Assembly: GCA_002372575.1 (NCBI GenBank)
Contig: DFHC01000060.1
Coordinates: forward strand, 1 to 12,802
Source of the DNA: a bacterium UBA3734
Lineage (GTDB): Bacteria; Bacteroidota; Bacteroidia; Bacteroidales; Bacteroidaceae
Reading direction: 5' to 3'
Length of the DNA: 12,802 nt
Shown here: positions 1,503 to 7,411 of the stretch, in pieces
Position numbering within the stretch: position 1 is the stretch's first letter
Layout of the letters: every line of letters starts with the position of its first letter
The notes under the pieces: generated by a model
Told to the model about the DNA's origin: nothing
The model's input: only the letters and a program-made list of their open reading frames with translations
The model's database searches: none
Made by a program: the position numbers and the translations under genes

Positions 1503-1533
1503 GATAGAAATTGGCAAAAAAAGTGTACCTTTG
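1503..1533 (+). promoter_or_regulatory. Predicted promoter of the queCDEF operon
   Basis: TACCTTTG at 1526-1533 is a perfect TAnnTTTG -7 box. The -33 position (about 1503-1505) is poor; TTGG occurs at 1511-1514, too close for the canonical spacing. Transcription would begin near 1538, giving a leader of about 70 bases that carries a hairpin and the preQ1 aptamer. The -33 regions of this promoter and of the divergent mnmA promoter lie about ten bases apart. Confidence 0.65.
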
Positions 1534-1542
1534 CACCCGATT

Positions 1543-1563
1543 TCCGCATTGATGCGGATTTTT
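1543..1563 (+). promoter_or_regulatory. 5' leader hairpin followed by U-run, ahead of the preQ1 aptamer
   Basis: TCCGCAT and ATGCGGA (1543-1549 and 1552-1558) are perfect inverted repeats separated by TG. As RNA this gives a six-pair stem closed by a UUGA loop, followed by UUUUU (1559-1563). It begins a few bases after the predicted transcription start. It resembles a small terminator or an RNA-stabilising 5' hairpin, or the DNA could be an operator. Which of these applies cannot be decided from sequence. Confidence 0.5.
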
Positions 1564-1568
1564 ACAAC

Positions 1569-1603
1569 AGGGGTACTTGCTCAACCCCCTTTAACAAAAC
1601 AAG
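1569..1603 (+). promoter_or_regulatory. preQ1 class-I riboswitch in the queC leader
   Basis: P1 pairs AGGGG (1569-1573) with CCCCT (1586-1590). The loop carries CTTG (1576-1579), which pairs with CAAG at the end of the A-rich tail (1600-1603), forming the H-type pseudoknot. The tail TTAACAAAACAAG (1591-1603) is identical to the tail I recall for the Thermoanaerobacter tengcongensis aptamer. Aligning to that structure, U1574, C1585 and A1599 take the places of the preQ1-contacting U6, C15 and A29, and G1579-C1600 the pair above the ligand. The aptamer ends four bases before the queC ATG and no terminator follows it. Ligand binding should therefore lock up the ribosome-binding region and repress translation of the preQ1 pathway. 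Confidence 0.93.
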
Positions 1604-1607
1604 AAAT

Positions 1608-2282
1608 ATGAAAAAAAACACTTTACCGTCTGCGGATTCGGTGATTATCTACTCCGGCGGACTCGATTCCACGACGCTCCTCTACGAAGAGCAGCGACGC
1701 ATTGCCTTGGCCGTTACCTTCGACTATGGCAGCAATCACGGCATTCGCGAACAGGAATGCGCGCGCTACCACTGCCAACGCCTTGGCATCGAACATCTTG
1801 TGATTAACCTCAGTTTCATGGGGCAGTACTTTTCCTCGTCGCTCACGAGCGGTGCCGACGCCATCCCCACGGGCAGCTACGACGCTGAAAACATGCGCTC
1901 CACCGTCGTGCCGTTCCGCAATGGAATCATGCTTAGCGTGGCTTGCGGACTGGCCGAGAGCCGCGGCCTGAAGCGCGTGCTGATGGCCAACCACGGCGGC
2001 GACCACGCCATCTATCCCGACTGTACGCCGCACTTCGTTGAGACGATGAATGCGGCCATGCAGGCAGGTACCTACGAGGGCGTCGTCTTAGACTCGCCCT
2101 ACACCCATCTCACGAAGGCCGACATCTTGCGACGGGGCGCGCAGCTCGGCATCGACTATGCCCACACGTATTCTTGCTATTGCGGCAACGAAATCCACTG
2201 CGGTCGCTGTGCCACGTGTGTGGAACGGCGCGAGGCTTTCGCCCAGACGGGCATCGAGGACCCTACGCAGTATGATGTTTAA
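1608..2282 (+). CDS. queC: 7-cyano-7-deazaguanine (preQ0) synthase QueC
   Basis: QueC converts 7-carboxy-7-deazaguanine to preQ0 using ATP and ammonia. The 224-residue protein, a normal family length, has the PP-loop SGGLDS at 16-21, the segment IPTGSYDAENMRSTVVPFRN typical of QueC, GGDHAIYPDC, and a C-terminal zinc site with Cys190, Cys198, Cys201 and Cys204 (SCYCGNEIHCGRCATCVER), plus an extra Cys192. The ATG at 1608 was chosen because it immediately follows the preQ1 riboswitch; an upstream in-frame ATG at 1500 lies before the predicted transcription start. It is the first gene of queC-queD-queE-queF, with 18 bases to queD. Expression is expected to fall when preQ1 is abundant. Confidence 0.97.
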   Translation: MKKNTLPSADSVIIYSGGLDSTTLLYEEQRRIALAVTFDYGSNHGIREQECARYHCQRLGIEHLVINLSFMGQYFSSSLTSGADAIPTGSYDAENMRSTVVPFRNGIMLSVACGLAESRGLKRVLMANHGGDHAIYPDCTPHFVETMNAAMQAGTYEGVVLDSPYTHLTKADILRRGAQLGIDYAHTYSCYCGNEIHCGRCATCVERREAFAQTGIEDPTQYDV

Positions 2283-2300: not shown

Positions 2301-2636
2301 ATGTATTATATCCAGAAAACCATAGAAATTTCGAGTGCACACCGTCTGCAACTCGACTATCCCAGCAAGTGTACGCAGTTACACGGTCATAACTGGACTA
2401 TCACCGTCTATTGCCGTGCCCGCGAGCTCAACCACAACGGCATGGTGGTCGATTTTACGGAAATCAAGCGACTCATCAAGGGACCGCTCGACCACAAAGT
2501 GCTCAACGACGTCATTCCCTGCAACCCCACGGCCGAGAACCTCGCCCGCTGGTGTTGCGAGCAGATTCCCTGTTGCTATCGCGTGGATGTGAAAGAGAGC
2601 GAGGGCAACGTGGCCACCTACGAAATCGACGAGTGA
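2301..2636 (+). CDS. queD: 6-carboxy-5,6,7,8-tetrahydropterin synthase QueD
   Basis: QueD turns 7,8-dihydroneopterin triphosphate into 6-carboxytetrahydropterin, releasing acetaldehyde and triphosphate. The 111-residue protein is of the 6-pyruvoyltetrahydropterin-synthase fold. Visible are the zinc-binding histidines His14 (SSAHRL), His28 and His30 (LHGHNW), the catalytic Cys24 in KCTQLHGH, the VVDFTEIK segment, the LDHKVLND catalytic Asp/His pair (64-65), NPTAENLA and the C-terminal VKESEGNVATYE with the pterin-anchoring glutamate. The single-domain length is usual. Its stop codon overlaps the queE start by one base (TGATG), indicating translational coupling. The substrate comes from GTP cyclohydrolase I (FolE), which is not in this window. 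Confidence 0.96.
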   Translation: MYYIQKTIEISSAHRLQLDYPSKCTQLHGHNWTITVYCRARELNHNGMVVDFTEIKRLIKGPLDHKVLNDVIPCNPTAENLARWCCEQIPCCYRVDVKESEGNVATYEIDE

Positions 2637-3223
2637 TGCGCGTAAACGAGATTTTCCATTCGCTTCAAGGCGAGGGCTACAATAGCGGCACACCCGCCGT
2701 CTTCATCCGTTTCAGCGGATGCAATTTGCAGTGTCCGTTTTGCGACACGCAGCACGAGAGCGGCACGGAAATGACCGAGCAGGAAGTCGTCGAGGCCGTA
2801 AAATACCTCGCTCCTCGCTCCTCGCTCCTCGTCGTCACTGGAGGAGAACCCGCGCTGCAGCTCACTGCGTCGCTCGTCGATGCGTTGCATGAAATCGGGA
2901 AACGAGTGGCCGTGGAGACCAACGGAACGCTGCCGCTGCCGCCGAATGTCGATTGGATTACGCTCTCGCCCAAAAACGCATGGCTGGGCGACGAGGCTAT
3001 GCCTGTGCTCACCCGCGCCGACGAGCTGAAAGTGCTCTACGACGGCTCTTGCGACCCTTCCGTCTTCGATTCCATCGTCGCCACTCACCGCTTCCTGCAG
3101 CCGATGGACACGGGCGACGCTAACCGCAACGCCGACCTGATGCAACAAGCCGCCGACTACTGCTTGCAGCATCCGCAGTGGCGACTCTCCCTTCAGATTC
3201 ATAAAATCTTAAACATACGATAA
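2636..3223 (+). CDS. queE: 7-carboxy-7-deazaguanine synthase QueE (radical SAM)
   Basis: QueE rearranges 6-carboxytetrahydropterin to 7-carboxy-7-deazaguanine by radical SAM chemistry. The 195-residue protein starts [18 protein letters not shown], the family N-terminus. It has the [4Fe-4S] motif CX3CX2C at Cys29, Cys33 and Cys36 ([10 protein letters not shown]), the SAM-binding [16 protein letters not shown], and ends in [11 protein letters not shown]. The ATG at 2636 overlaps the queD stop codon; the open frame upstream merely shadows queD. Just before the GGEP motif, a 7-base tandem repeat (2807-2831) encodes APRSSLL. Because 7 is not a multiple of 3, gain or loss of one unit would frameshift the gene. 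Confidence 0.96.
2807..2831 (+). repeat. 7-base tandem repeat (CTCGCTC, 3.6 copies) inside queE
   Basis: Three perfect copies of CTCGCTC (2807-2813, 2814-2820, 2821-2827) are followed by CTCG. They encode part of a loop (LAPRSSLL) directly ahead of the strand leading into the GGEP motif. Slippage by one unit shifts the reading frame. Confidence 0.85.
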
Positions 3224-3227
3224 TCTC

Positions 3228-3683
3228 ATGGAAAGAAACCAAGAACATCTGCAGCAATTAGGCCAAAAAGTCCAAATTCCTGCCGACTACGCCCCCGAAG
3301 TGCTCGAAACCTTTGAAAACGTCCATCCCGACAACGATTATTGGGTGCGATTCAACTGTCCGGAGTTCACGACGCTCTGTCCCATCACGGGGCAGCCCGA
3401 TTTCGCTGAAATCCGCATCGCCTACGTGCCTGCCGAGCGCATGGTGGAGTCGAAAAGCCTGAAACTCTATCTTTTCTCGTTCCGCAACCACGGCGATTTC
3501 CACGAAGACTGCGTGAACACGATTGTGAAAGACCTTGTGCGACTGATGCAGCCGAAATACCTCGAAGTGCGCGGCCTGTTCACGCCACGCGGCGGCATCA
3601 GCATCTGGCCCTACGCCAACTATGGGCAGCCCGGCACGAAGTGGGAACAGCTTGCCGAACAGCGGCTGATGCAGCAGGAATAA
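3228..3683 (+). CDS. queF: NADPH-dependent 7-cyano-7-deazaguanine (preQ0) reductase QueF
   Basis: QueF reduces the nitrile of preQ0 to the aminomethyl group of preQ1, using two NADPH. The 151-residue protein is the short unimodular type. It shows the nucleophile Cys51 and the acid Asp58 in [13 protein letters not shown], the QueF motif [15 protein letters not shown] (74-88), and Glu93 of GDFHED, which binds the substrate. It starts four bases after queE. Because the product preQ1 is the riboswitch ligand, this gene closes the feedback loop. Tgt, QueA and QueG/QueH, which complete queuosine, are not in the window. The gene ends 15 bases from a convergent lipoprotein gene, and I see no hairpin terminator between them. 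Confidence 0.97.
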
Positions 3684-3698
3684 AATAGAGAAAAAAGA

Positions 3699-4496
3699 TT
3701 AGTTTTTCATCGCTCGGCGCAGGCGTTCTTCGGCCTTCTGTCGGGCGATTTTGTTGATGTCGTCCTTGTTCGTGTGGCGATAGTAGCTGCGCGTTGCGCC
3801 CTCGCTACCGAGCACGAGCGAGTCGCCGCGCAGGTAGAGGATGTCGCAGGTGTCGTTGCGCGTGCTCACCATCTCCATTTCGTCGCTGTCGGCCTTGCGG
3901 CGGAAGTCGCCGCTGGTCATCACGAGCTTGCCGTTGAGAATGTGCCACTCGGTGAAGAAGCGCAGCTGCGGATATTCCACGGGACTCTTGCTCTCCAGTG
4001 CGCTCTCGGGCCTGACGTAGCCCACGCTCTGCGCCGTCCATTGGCGTTTGAGCGAGAAACCGTATTCGCGCGGAATGAAGTATTCTTGTTTCACGGAGTC
4101 GGGCACTTCGCGAACGAGCCGCGGCATCACCACGTAGCACCACGTGCCCTTCAGCTCGTCGAGGTCCACCACGAGGTCGGCCACGGTCGAGTCCTCGGCG
4201 TTGCGCACGAGGCCAATCCAGTCGCCCACGCTCAGGCTGCCGTGGACTTTCTGTCGGCGATGCGCCTCGATGACGTTGTAGCTGACGGGGTCGCGTCCGT
4301 CGGTCGGCAGCAGCACGACCACGGAGTCGCCCGAGCCCTCGCAGGCCAGCCCGTAGATGGTGCTGTCGCCCTCGAGCAGCAGTTCTTCGCTTGTTTTTCC
4401 CTCGGAGCTCGGCGAGGCCATTTTCTCCTCTTGGCTTTTCTGTCCGCAGGCGAAAACGAGGCCGCAAAACAGCAGAATAACGATAGATTTCTTCAT
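3699..4496 (-). CDS. Putative lipoprotein of unknown function
   Basis: A 265-residue protein with an N-terminal lipoprotein signal (MKKSIVILLFCGLVFACGQ; lipidated residue probably Cys17), then a Ser/Glu-rich tether. The mature part has charged beta-strand-like segments, including LDELKGTWCYVVMP. The C-terminal half has YPQLRFFTEWHILNGKLVMTSGDFRRK and NDTCDILYLRGDSLVLGS, which resemble the GTW...L..G.L...S layout of lipocalin-like small barrels, but I do not recognise a named family. The last 25 residues are strongly basic (RQKAEERLRRAMKN). Its ATG overlaps the stop codon of the upstream hydrolase gene (ATGA), so the two are probably translated together. It is clearly more GC-rich than the hydrolase. 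Location is likely periplasm or outer membrane. Confidence 0.85.
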   Translation of the reverse strand: MKKSIVILLFCGLVFACGQKSQEEKMASPSSEGKTSEELLLEGDSTIYGLACEGSGDSVVVLLPTDGRDPVSYNVIEAHRRQKVHGSLSVGDWIGLVRNAEDSTVADLVVDLDELKGTWCYVVMPRLVREVPDSVKQEYFIPREYGFSLKRQWTAQSVGYVRPESALESKSPVEYPQLRFFTEWHILNGKLVMTSGDFRRKADSDEMEMVSTRNDTCDILYLRGDSLVLGSEGATRSYYRHTNKDDINKIARQKAEERLRRAMKN

Positions 4497-5620
4497 TTCT
4501 TTAAAAGATCTTTTCTATTTTCAATCCATGCAACCATATTTCGGCACAATTCAGAGAATCCCTTTCCGGCCTGATAGCCCTTATTTTGCTTTTTTTCATG
4601 ACGGACAAAATGCGGCATAAGTGGCTGAAAAATTCCGCCAGAATCTTCAAACGAGTGAGTGACGCTATCAATGGCGATGCTGTAGTAGTCGAGGTGTCTG
4701 TTTTCCATCAAAAATCGCTCTAAACCCTCTTGGTTTTCTTTGTATCTCATCAGGTTGTCATCTTTGGCATAGGCGATGAATACAGGACATTTTATAGTCG
4801 GAAAATAATCAGCCGGATTATATCGTATAAAGGCCAAATAGCGTTTGTCCTCTTCCGGTCTCCTGAAAACGTCCTTCACATACTCGTCTTCGCTTTGCTT
4901 GCCAAAGAAACTCTCCTTGCCGAGTTTTTGGGTTTCGTTTTCCCTGTAAAATCTTCGGGCCTCTGCTCTAAGTTTAGAAAAGGCCGTTTCATTGTCAGGA
5001 TTGTTTGCAAGGATGTGAATCGTTCGATATAGGTTGTATTTAAATAGCTTCATCTTCTGTGTAGGCACAATATGGGACAAGTATTCTAATCTTGAAACTT
5101 GTTGTGAATATGCGAATTGCTCTCCTGACAGACCGGAAGTTGCCAATAACAGCAGGAATTTCACTTCGGGATTTCGTGCTGTTTCAACAATGGATATGCT
5201 TCCTCCTTCACTGTGTCCGACAAGCCCGATTGGACGGTTCTGATTCTTTTTTAAGAAAGCTATTGCATCGTGCAAATCATCTGCTCCGTCGTGTATGGTA
5301 TATCGTCCGTCGTTGGGTTCTGAGTTGATGGTATCGGAAAAATTACGGTTATCGTATCGGAACGTGGCGATTCCGTACTTGTTCAGCGTGTCGGACAAGG
5401 CTTTGAAAAAGCCCCTGTAGTCTCTGCTTATTGGTTGCGGAGGGCTGACCAATACCAATAATGGTGCATTTGGAATTAAATTTTCAGGCTCGGACAGAAC
5501 ACCTCTCAAGGTCATTTTACCATTGAGAATGGAAAAGTCGATTTCGGTTGTTTTTGTTCCCTTTGAACATAATAACAGCGGAGTGCATATCAATAAAATG
5601 ATTATACTTAGTCTTTGCAT
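4493..5620 (-). CDS. Secreted alpha/beta hydrolase (serine hydrolase)
   Basis: A 375-residue protein with an N-terminal hydrophobic export signal (MQRLSIIILLICTPLLLCSKG). A cysteine follows LLL, but this is a poor lipobox. The core is an alpha/beta-hydrolase: LLVLVSPPQP near the oxyanion hole, GIATFRYDNRNFSD, the nucleophile elbow GHSEGG with Ser137, a helical lid region, the acid-bearing strand CPVFIAYAKDDNL, and a late histidine in VTHSFED. It resembles the S33/S9-like esterase-peptidase group; the substrate is unknown. The start was chosen for its signal peptide and its position downstream of a TATCTTTG promoter; an ATG at 5641, seven codons earlier and preceded by AGAAGG, is equally possible. 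The frame stays open to 5755, but that part covers the promoter. It is AT-richer than the downstream gene, which it overlaps by four bases. Confidence 0.9.
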   Translation of the reverse strand: MQRLSIIILLICTPLLLCSKGTKTTEIDFSILNGKMTLRGVLSEPENLIPNAPLLVLVSPPQPISRDYRGFFKALSDTLNKYGIATFRYDNRNFSDTINSEPNDGRYTIHDGADDLHDAIAFLKKNQNRPIGLVGHSEGGSISIVETARNPEVKFLLLLATSGLSGEQFAYSQQVSRLEYLSHIVPTQKMKLFKYNLYRTIHILANNPDNETAFSKLRAEARRFYRENETQKLGKESFFGKQSEDEYVKDVFRRPEEDKRYLAFIRYNPADYFPTIKCPVFIAYAKDDNLMRYKENQEGLERFLMENRHLDYYSIAIDSVTHSFEDSGGIFQPLMPHFVRHEKKQNKGYQAGKGFSELCRNMVAWIENRKDLLKK

Positions 5621-5666
5621 TGTTCTTGTTGTTGCCTCCATACACCTTCTATTTTGTAATTCACTT

Positions 5667-5719
5667 GCAAAGATAAAACAAAATAGCGAAACCGCCAAGG
5701 CTTTCGCAGGAATTTTGTG
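5667..5719 (-). promoter_or_regulatory. Promoter of the hydrolase gene; copy A of a duplicated promoter cassette
   Basis: On the minus strand there is TTG (5696-5698), a 20-base spacer and TATCTTTG (5668-5675), a textbook Bacteroidota promoter. The whole 53-base stretch, including about 20 bases upstream of -33, matches 6605-6657 at 43 of 53 positions without gaps. It sits in the 131-base gap after the nim-like gene, so the hydrolase and lipoprotein can be transcribed separately. Confidence 0.8.
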
Positions 5720-5751
5720 CGGGAAACCAAAAGATGCGACGTTCAAGGGCG

Positions 5752-6252
5752 TCATGCGCCACCCCTCTCCTGACGGACAAGTTCTATGGCTTCTTTGCCC
5801 GTGAGGTGTTCGATGTCCATTCGGATGATGAGCATACGGTCAAACCCTTTTTCTATTTCTTTCTGAAGGGCTTCCTCTTGGTTGGGGTTGTATTTTCGCC
5901 CTAACATTTGCGTCGCGGTCAGTTTCTCGGCGGGGTCGGAAAGAATCTTGATTCGCCCGAAAGCAATGATGCTCCTGAAGTACGTCGTATATTCGTCGCC
6001 GTGGACTTCATCCTTGTCAATGATGCAGAACGAGGCTTTCCCGTACTTGTTTATTGCATCAATTTTGTGGCCTGACAGGGCACTGTGAAAGAAGAGGCAG
6101 TTGTTTGCATACACGTAGCTAATGGGCACGGCATAGGGATAGTCGCCATCGCCGAGCAATGCCAGCGTTCCGGCAGTTGCGCGGTTTAGAATTTCCAGAC
6201 ATTTTTCCGTGGAAAGCTGTTGTCGCTTCCTTCTCATTTCCCTGAATTCCAT
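5752..6252 (-). CDS. Pyridoxamine 5'-phosphate oxidase-family flavoprotein, NimA-like
   Basis: A 166-residue protein starting MEFREMRRKRQQLS, then CLEILNRATAGTLALLGDGDYPYAVPISYVY, LFFHSALSGHKIDAI, ASFCIIDKDEVHG and YFRSIIAFGRIKIL. This is the split-barrel FMN-binding fold of the PNPOx-like group, and closest in style to the Nim proteins linked to 5-nitroimidazole resistance in Bacteroides, including a conserved SGHK (His62). Many chromosomal relatives have no shown role in resistance, so only the family is claimed. Its ATG follows the stop codon of the SMR exporter without a gap (TAAATG), so the two form one translational unit. It is followed by a 131-base gap with a separate promoter. Confidence 0.9.
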   Translation of the reverse strand: MEFREMRRKRQQLSTEKCLEILNRATAGTLALLGDGDYPYAVPISYVYANNCLFFHSALSGHKIDAINKYGKASFCIIDKDEVHGDEYTTYFRSIIAFGRIKILSDPAEKLTATQMLGRKYNPNQEEALQKEIEKGFDRMLIIRMDIEHLTGKEAIELVRQERGGA

Positions 6253-6576
6253 TTATGAAATGCTTTTAAGTCCGATGATGGATATGATTAGTGTGCTAAG
6301 GAAAAACAGCCTCCAAAACGTGGCAGGCTCTTTGAAGATGAAAATGCCAACGACGACGGCACCAATGGCTCCAATTCCTGTCCAGACGGGATAGGCGGTG
6401 CCGATGGGCAGGGTTTGCGTTGCTTTGGCCAGTAGGACGGCGCTCAGCACGTAGAAGAGCGCAAATCCGCCAATCCACGACCACCACTCGCTGCCATCTA
6501 CGCCTTTTGTCTTTCCCAGACAGTAGGTAAATGCCACTTCGCAAATTCCCGCAACAATAAGAATAATCCAGTTCAT
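6253..6576 (-). CDS. Small multidrug resistance (SMR) family transporter, SugE/Gdx-like
   Basis: A 107-residue inner-membrane protein with four transmembrane helices, the normal SMR size. The essential Glu13 is present (AGICEVAF). The helix-3 motif LPIGTAYPVWTGIGAIG resembles the SugE/Gdx branch (guanidinium exporters) rather than the Qac branch, which has IAYA.WSG. Position 16, a tryptophan in the Gdx proteins I can recall, is phenylalanine here, so substrate preference is uncertain. The ATG at 6574-6576 was chosen over the open frame to 6768 because a TACTTTTG promoter lies 30 bases upstream of it. It is the first gene of a pair with the Nim-like flavoprotein; the two are directly abutting. 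Confidence 0.94.
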   Translation of the reverse strand: MNWIILIVAGICEVAFTYCLGKTKGVDGSEWWSWIGGFALFYVLSAVLLAKATQTLPIGTAYPVWTGIGAIGAVVVGIFIFKEPATFWRLFFLSTLIISIIGLKSIS

Positions 6577-6604
6577 AGTCGTATGATGCTTTGAGATTGA
6601 TGCT

Positions 6605-6657
6605 GCAAAAGTAAGACAAAAATGCGGAAAAGCCAAGGCTTTCACACGAATTTTGTG
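6605..6657 (-). promoter_or_regulatory. Promoter of the SMR gene; copy B of the duplicated promoter cassette
   Basis: On the minus strand there is TTG (6634-6636), a 20-base spacer and TACTTTTG (6606-6613). It is 43/53 identical to 5667-5719 in the same register, with the best block AAGGCTTTC...GAATTTTGTG (plus strand) lying at and upstream of -33. Transcription would start about 25 bases before the SMR start codon. Confidence 0.8.
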
Positions 6658-6673
6658 TAGAAAACTTAAAAAG

Positions 6674-6705
6674 TTTGGTCGCCTTGTTTTTTTTGCGTAA
6701 TTTTG
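6674..6705 (+). promoter_or_regulatory. Promoter of the polyferredoxin gene
   Basis: TTTG (6674-6677), a 20-base spacer and TAATTTTG (6698-6705) match the Bacteroidota consensus exactly. Expected transcription start is near 6710, about 15 bases before the ATG. The promoter is bracketed by GGTCGC (6677-6682) and GCGACC (6705-6710), and AAACTT/AAGTTT arms (6662-6667, 6671-6676) overlap the -33 box. It lies back to back with the SMR promoter but does not overlap it. Confidence 0.8.
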
Positions 6706-6724
6706 CGACCTCAATTGTAAAACT

Positions 6725-7411
6725 ATGGTCAAAAAACAATTCCACCGCCATTTTCCGACGAAAGGCATTCCGTTGTATTGGATACTTTTCGCCTATCTTG
6801 TTGTAGGCTATTTCTATCCGTTTATCGGCTTTGTTGCCTTGATTTGTATGTTAGGTCCCGTGCTGACCTCGATTTGGAAGGGTCGTTACTGGTGCGGGAA
6901 TGTCTGTCCGCGCGGTAATATGTACGACCGCCTGCTGTCGCGCTATTCGCCGCATCGCCCCATCCCGTCCTTTGTGCGCACTTTCGGCTTCCGACTTTTC
7001 GCCGTATTTTTCATCCTCACCGTTTTCGGCGTGCAGTTCTACCTCGGATGGGGTGACTGGAACGCAATGGGAAAGGTGTTCTGGAATATTATCCTCCTGA
7101 CCACCATCGTGGGCATTGTCCTTTCTTTTGTCTATGCTCCGCGGACGTGGTGCTCGTTTTGTCCAATGGGAACGATTTCGTCGTGGGTCGCACCGCGCAG
7201 GATACCTTTTTCCAAGAGCTATAAGAGCATACACGTGAGCAGCGATTGCCAGATGAAGTGCAAAAGTTGTGCTCGTGTGTGCCCAATGCAACTGACACCC
7301 TACGACTGTCGCGGACAGGAGCTCGGTTACCTGAACCCAGACTGCATCAAATGCGGCAAATGCGTGATGGCATGTCCTACGAAAATCATGTCAATGCGCA
7401 TGGAAAGGTAG
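6725..7411 (+). CDS. Membrane-bound 4Fe-4S polyferredoxin, NapH/CcoG-like
   Basis: A 228-residue integral membrane iron-sulfur protein. It has hydrophobic segments at about 16-50 (probably two helices), 88-108 and 118-138. Two cysteine motifs of the NapH/NosR/CcoG type lie next to the membrane: WCGNVCPRG (Cys57, Cys61) and WCSFCPMGT (Cys143, Cys146). Two C-terminal ferredoxin-type clusters follow: Cys175, 179, 182, 186 (CX3CX2CX3CP) and Cys207, 210, 213, 217 (CX2CX2CX3CP). Such proteins pass electrons between the membrane and a partner enzyme. No partner such as a nitrate, nitrous-oxide or cytochrome-oxidase maturation gene is nearby, so the role is unknown. It has its own good promoter and ends 32 bases before the carboxyltransferase gene on the same strand. 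Confidence 0.92.
   Translation: MVKKQFHRHFPTKGIPLYWILFAYLVVGYFYPFIGFVALICMLGPVLTSIWKGRYWCGNVCPRGNMYDRLLSRYSPHRPIPSFVRTFGFRLFAVFFILTVFGVQFYLGWGDWNAMGKVFWNIILLTTIVGIVLSFVYAPRTWCSFCPMGTISSWVAPRRIPFSKSYKSIHVSSDCQMKCKSCARVCPMQLTPYDCRGQELGYLNPDCIKCGKCVMACPTKIMSMRMER

Follow-up and report, generated by a model that had tools for sequence, protein, structure and literature searches.

The window, by which we mean the whole stretch of 12,802 nucleotides analysed here, carries a small structured element followed, four bases further 3′, by the ATG of queC at position 1608 and then by queD, queE and queF (Table 1). A preliminary description of the sequence had placed an aptamer directly ahead of queC-queD-queE-queF, and this gene order was upheld by matches to TIGR and Pfam profiles. 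QueC and QueF passed the NCBIfam equivalog cut-offs and QueD and QueE scored below theirs; the Pfam cut-offs were exceeded by all four, with the QueE match being to the general Radical_SAM family only. The same description spoke of a complete preQ1 operon, which holds in the sense of the four genes queCDEF. In the genome of the window (G000), which is 58.5% complete, tgt was present as two fragments on two contigs (C94 and C99). An open reading frame running from ATG1500 through the aptamer into queC was dismissed, its extension (1500-1607) being an artefact because the homologues start at 1608. The QueC relatives intermingle with rows labelled Prevotella, in agreement with the earlier impression of a Prevotella-like genome, and the genus of the window was taken as Prevotella for this reason.

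Table 1. Features of the preQ1 locus in the window.
Feature	Position	Strand	Basis or remark
Stem-loop, 6-bp, GC-rich, TCCGCA-UUGA-TGCGGA, and T-run	1543..1563	+	Between presumed promoter and aptamer
preQ1-I aptamer, whole	1569..1603	+	Sequence, RF00522 match, relatives
P1 5′ strand, AGGGG	1569..1573	+	Pairs with C1586-U1590, 5 bp
L1, U1574 (equivalent of Tte U6) and A1575	1574..1575	+	U after P1 in 74/75 distinct rows, gap in one
P2 5′ strand, CUUG	1576..1579	+	4 Watson-Crick pairs with C1600-G1603
L2, CUCAAC, AC motif at its end; C1585 is the specificity base	1580..1585	+	C conserved in 75/75
P1 3′ strand, CCCCU	1586..1590	+	P1 covariation
L3, A-rich	1591..1599	+	Identical to Tte L3
P2 3′ strand, CAAG	1600..1603	+	Sequence; ends 4 nt 5′ of start codon
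queC	1608..2282	+	TIGR00364 above cut-off, PF06508
queD	2301..2636	+	PF01242; TIGR03367 87.8 against cut-off of 89.25 bits (narrow miss)
queE, overlaps queD stop	2636..3223	+	TIGR04508 best, 172 against cut-off of 240 bits; Radical_SAM
queF	3228..3683	+	TIGR03139 above cut-off, PF14489

Upstream of the aptamer, positions 1526..1533 of the forward strand read TACCTTTG, which we take to be a Bacteroidetes-type -7 box; no -33 box was found in the window sequence at the standard spacing from it. Of 119 leaders, 75 contain the motif TAnnTTTG in the 75 nt preceding the aptamer (raw count without control). The idea that the hairpin at 1543-1563 forms part of the switch was unsupported, since no such hairpin is seen ahead of the aptamer in G071, the nearest relative. 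Two terminator-like sites were detected (1543-1558 with its T-run, and one inside queC) versus a mean of 1.1 in shuffled sequences, and none lay between the aptamer and the start codon, as the preliminary description had noted.

The element has the layout of an H-type pseudoknot, with P1 as its hairpin and P2 formed between the loop and the tail. The P1 loop (U1574-C1585) comprises 12 nt, C1585 stands immediately 5′ of the P1 3′ strand, and the inner P1 pair, G1573-C1586, adjoins the presumed ligand site. Further features of RF00522 are found in the window, namely the specificity C, the G-C floor pair, the U after P1 and the A-rich L3, as is the location upstream of genes for preQ1 synthesis or transport. 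The limits of the aptamer coincide exactly with those originally proposed (1569-1603), and the 5-bp P1, the CUUG/CAAG P2 and the specificity base C1585 had been read correctly. The definition of type II includes AC before the P1 3′ strand (PMC11625349), which is represented here by A1584-C1585. Type I is marked by UC in front of the P1 3′ strand and UU following the P1 5′ strand, and type III by UU following the P1 5′ strand together with the Shine-Dalgarno (SD) sequence AAGG in P2; the window matches neither, having AC and UA in the first comparison and UA and CAAGA in the second.

Comparison with known systems agreed with this assignment. The type II preQ1-I aptamer of Thermoanaerobacter tengcongensis (Tte), with the sequence CUGGG-UCGCAGUAAC-CCCAG-UUAACAAAACAAG (PMC10639078), has in common with the window the 5-bp P1, the AC, the U after the 5′ strand and the 13-base tail, the identity of which with a thermoanaerobacterial aptamer had already been pointed out. 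Equivalents of Tte C30 and G33 are also present in P2 of the window (PMC10639078). Unlike Tte, the window has a loop of 12 rather than 10 nt (the two extra bases noticed earlier) and four Watson-Crick pairs in P2, where Tte has a non-canonical P2, and no functional SD is seen in it. The type II switch of Bacillus subtilis queCDEF governs the same type of operon and has a canonical P2 like the window (and relative L238 has CUAG in P2), but the window lacks its terminator and the aptamer abuts the start codon. The type III switch of E. coli yhhQ resembles the branch described below in controlling yhhQ and in its canonical P2 and AC motif; in contrast to it, the branch has no UU after P1, a longer loop and, in most members, no buried AAGG SD.

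RF00522 matched the window with 26.8 bits (E 0.001 for 221 bases and 4227 families) and, when searched against the whole 1.88-Mb genome, gave the window an E value of 0.002, the next of eight matches being at 0.98. The Rfam gathering score of this family is 39 bits, a curation limit rather than a structural feature, and the default Rfam scan of the window was therefore empty; RF00522 was likewise above cut-off in 0 of 60 relatives and 0 of 20 related loci. The covariance-model check that had been proposed thus failed at the gathering threshold and succeeded through the sub-threshold match and through our own branch models. Taken with the structure, the gene context and the relatives, the sequence makes it near certain that the element is a preQ1-I aptamer, as originally claimed, and a sound member of the class, nearest to type II. 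The class itself is already known, and the branch has features absent from the available descriptions.

Alignment of the relatives indicated that P1 is conserved as a structure. It is paired in 99.5% of 367 cells in 75 distinct rows, one pair being broken in L052, and its inner pair is G-C in all 75. Two-sided changes occurred in 15 cells over four of the five pairs, a level attained in 0 of 500 shuffles; further pair types were not above shuffles (5 versus 4.3; 191/500). The alignment behind this result (A3) had been fitted to P1, P2 playing no part in the fitting. P1 covaries, and P2 does so in a few members. Automated reading of P2 succeeded for 69 rows, with CUUG/CAAG in 63, UUUG/CAAG in 2, AUUG/CAAU in 1 and AUUG/CAAC in 3; six rows were skipped, of which L210 and L211 have truly lost P2. 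A scan requiring at least four P1 pairs and at least three P2 pairs, which is the basis of the P2 and distance counts, yielded 91 distinct aptamers, among them ones with CUUG/CAAG (83), AUUG/CAAU (1), CUAG/CUAG (1) or AUUG/CAAC (4, one pair broken) as P2. The two bases before the P1 3′ strand were AC in 90 of these 91 and UC in one. The length of L3 tracked that of P1: where P1 has 4 bp, 26 of 29 aptamers have an L3 of 7 nt, and where it has 5 bp, 51 of 62 have one of 9 nt, as would be predicted for an L3 that spans the P1 groove.

To survey the relatives, the RF00522 search, which returned many chance matches (E up to 0.5), was replaced by two branch models, R1 and R2. Because the MAFFT alignment A1 misaligned P1, R1 was built from eight gap-free aptamers; R2 was built from 80 aligned members. 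At E ≤ 0.1, R1 detected the aptamer in 69 of the 150 genomes searched from the window's genus. The 30 loci retrieved in this search, together with 20 weaker places, all stand at the start of a preQ1 gene (yhhQ or queF, and queC in the window's genome). The weak scores were due to real variants, in which P1 was shorter (AGAG/CUCU) or had different pairs, or the tail was altered. R2 found 83 places in 82 of the 150 genomes, all of them directly ahead of yhhQ (75), queF (7) or queC (1), eight places without a yhhQ match having been assigned by reading the genes. Conversely, 99 matches of yhhQ, the protein used being a queuosine-precursor transporter (TIGR00697, PF02592), occurred in 98 of the 150 genomes, and 74 had an R2 match within 46 nt upstream. 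Among the other 25, an aptamer was recognized by eye in 16, doubtful in 1 and absent in 7, one broken gene being left out. The same switch in the relatives therefore usually precedes yhhQ or queF, a wider pattern that the preliminary description had missed.

We considered the possibility that the element is an unrelated structured leader or a chance resemblance, as its score below the Rfam gathering limit might suggest. This is scarcely credible given the preQ1-gene context of 83 places out of 83, the P1 covariation and the tail identity with Tte. Another deazaguanine such as preQ0 might also be the ligand instead of preQ1, inasmuch as yhhQ carries preQ0 too and the preference of the Tte aptamer for preQ1 over preQ0 is only 17-fold (PMC10622847). 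Yet, the branch retains the residues with which Tte reads preQ1, and queF, the product of which converts preQ0 to preQ1, is among the genes that follow the switch, so that we regard preQ0 as a quite improbable ligand and preQ1 as the probable one.

Among 395 genomes of the phylum, R2 gave matches in five at E ≤ 0.02, comprising the genome of the window, a second genome of its genus and three others with E values of 0.008-0.02, and no strong match outside the window's genus. R2 being specific to the branch, this search is silent on other preQ1 riboswitch types; a 2024 review lists Bacteroidota among the holders of preQ1-I types I and II (PMC11625349). Across the order, 20 genomes out of 295 were matched by R1 at E ≤ 0.1, strongly only in the case of the window's genome and of G250 and G435, both of one genus. 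The weak order loci (L150-L167) were discarded, 16 of the 18 being without a tail match and two (L157 and L165) having look-alike tails at other genes. In family f101, strong matches were found in 12 of 119 genomes, all of genus g103, the only other genus of the order to provide strong matches; seven of these precede queC and five a yhhQ-like gene, as judged by its first residues. In QueC loci from named genomes, the aptamer was present in 25 of 80, comprising 25 of the 27 queC-first loci (queC followed by queD and/or queE, and queF at the end wherever it is within reach) and none of the 53 others (queF before queC, or queC without other genes found). L050 and L053, the remaining queC-first loci, both begin directly after another gene.

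Translational riboswitches are usually explained by the hiding of a Shine-Dalgarno sequence, and Bacteroidetes are largely without such sequences. We analysed the start regions of 120 leaders, kept from 125 after removal of one false leader and of four ahead of yhhQ-like genes missed by the name filter. The distance to the start codon is short and fixed: from the end of CAAG to the AUG it is 3-4 nt in 97 of the 120 leaders (search range 1-9 nt). SD-like motifs are nearly absent, tetramers of this kind occurring at -20 to -4 in only two of the 120; CAAGG, which places an SD-like AAGG very near the AUG, is found in 20. Adenine is present at -3 in 87 leaders, at -6 in 107, at -12 in 86 and at -13 in 76. 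In Flavobacterium johnsoniae, which initiates without SD, adenines at precisely these positions and low structure near the AUG favor initiation (PMC6847099), and translational riboswitches have been predicted in organisms without SD (PMC11625349, section 11). P2 of the window contains A-6 and L3 contains A-12, and ligand-driven folding would therefore hide both.

These findings suggest how the switch may operate. At low preQ1, the leader would contain the P1 hairpin only, and the A-rich strand up to AUG1608 would be open to the 30S subunit. At high preQ1, the ligand would stack on G1573-C1586, pair with C1585 and be held by U1574 and by the final A of L3. P2 would then form between CUUG1576-1579 and CAAG1600-1603, in a pseudoknot ending just short of the start codon, and the burying of A-6 and A-12 would block 30S loading without needing a Shine-Dalgarno sequence. 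Translational off-control is thus likely from the layout, and we assign a probability of about 85% to the reading that a preQ1-I riboswitch of near-type II character switches off translation of queCDEF.

The same aptamer could instead control transcription, through ligand-dependent pausing at the pseudoknot or through Rho-dependent termination in untranslated queC mRNA. The type II switch of B. subtilis does act on transcription and pauses the polymerase (PMC11625349, section 11), and Rho polarity would carry the control to queDEF. We nevertheless consider this unlikely, as no terminator-like site separates aptamer and AUG, and the conserved geometry is that to the AUG, which lies 1-8 nt after the aptamer in all 120 leaders kept (scan range 1-9 nt). 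Because a pseudoknot of 35 nt ends only 1-8 nt before the start codons of the branch, indirect occlusion is directly testable in its members.

Comparison of the flanking genes suggested that the genes under the switch may have changed. Of ten same-genus places that were read, seven have yhhQ and queF after the switch or after the position that it would occupy, and these seven share the downstream neighbors of the window (OadA, LptD, an HD protein and, in many cases, the gene at 3699-4496); the window has queC-queD-queE-queF where the relatives have yhhQ. Its QueC is 73-74% identical to those of G250 and G435 and 58-66% identical to 19 same-genus QueC, while its QueF is 82-86% identical to the nearest same-genus QueF and 71% to those of G250 and G435. 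Accordingly, the window groups with queC-first operons in the QueC tree (SH-aLRT 98.6) and falls outside the queC-first clade in the QueF tree (100/99), though the alternatives were not rejected by AU tests (p of 0.097 and 0.327). As QueC and the gene order point to an operon of the g103 type, and QueF and the flanks to the genus, yhhQ may have given way to queCDE beneath a switch that was already in place, which the trees favor and do not prove. A mis-binned contig was rejected as the explanation, the LptD of the window being 65-78% identical to those of 20 same-genus genomes and 34% to those of G250 and G435. Separately, the region 4493-7411, from the queF side to OadA, contains hydrolase, pyridoxamine-oxidase-like, small multidrug-resistance-family and ferredoxin genes, none of which was matched in the synteny table of same-genus relatives.

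The window has a single aptamer. A pattern of two adjacent aptamers was found in six of 398 genomes of the genus, the reversed-pattern control giving none in the table. One of the six, G1177, was not a leader; the other five have tandem aptamers ahead of yhhQ, with three copies in G012 (L254/L309) and G1091 (L282) and two in G132 (L237/L307), G961 (L285) and G1155 (L287). A mechanical scan of the collected loci, with 121 matches in 1.26 Mb versus 3 in 1.18 Mb of block-shuffled sequence, also recovered the tandem copies in G012 and G132. Like these five relatives, known tandem riboswitches have aptamers for the same ligand in series (PMC9481103). Section 40 of that 2022 survey places preQ1-I, -II and -III among the classes not found in tandem, and going by its list, the present tandem members would be the first for preQ1-I (PMC9481103). 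Among the papers listed on preQ1 in connection with tandem arrangement, Prevotella or Bacteroidetes/Bacteroidota, none was recognised as reporting tandem preQ1-I. Other members are expanded by insertion. L2 is at least 17 nt long in 19 of 91 aptamers, and support for folding of the inserts is modest, with z ≤ -1.9 in 8 of 18 (best -5.1) and -1.6 to +0.4 in the rest, relative to letter shuffles. L3 contains a hairpin in L308 (G162), L256 (G090) and L257 (G141), the first of which has a long L2 insertion as well.

On balance, we lean slightly towards a broader interpretation, in which these elements form a Prevotella-centred preQ1-I branch below the Rfam cut-off. Such a branch would exert SD-free translational control by folding initiation-promoting adenines into the pseudoknot, would evolve by insertion of hairpins in L2 or L3 and by stacking of two or three tandem aptamers, giving a steeper response, and would keep its place while the genes swap between transport (yhhQ) and synthesis (queCDE). 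It would supply many natural cases of SD-free riboswitches, which have been named as still to be found (PMC11625349). Annotation pipelines relying on the Rfam cut-off would miss the loci tested here.

A few switches appear to have lost part of their structure. L210 and L211 (G160 and G018), and also L015, all of which precede yhhQ, retain P1 and the greater part of the tail, but they have another sequence in place of CUUG and CAAA at the end of the tail, so that P2 is lost; the switch is perhaps decayed or locked on in these three leaders.
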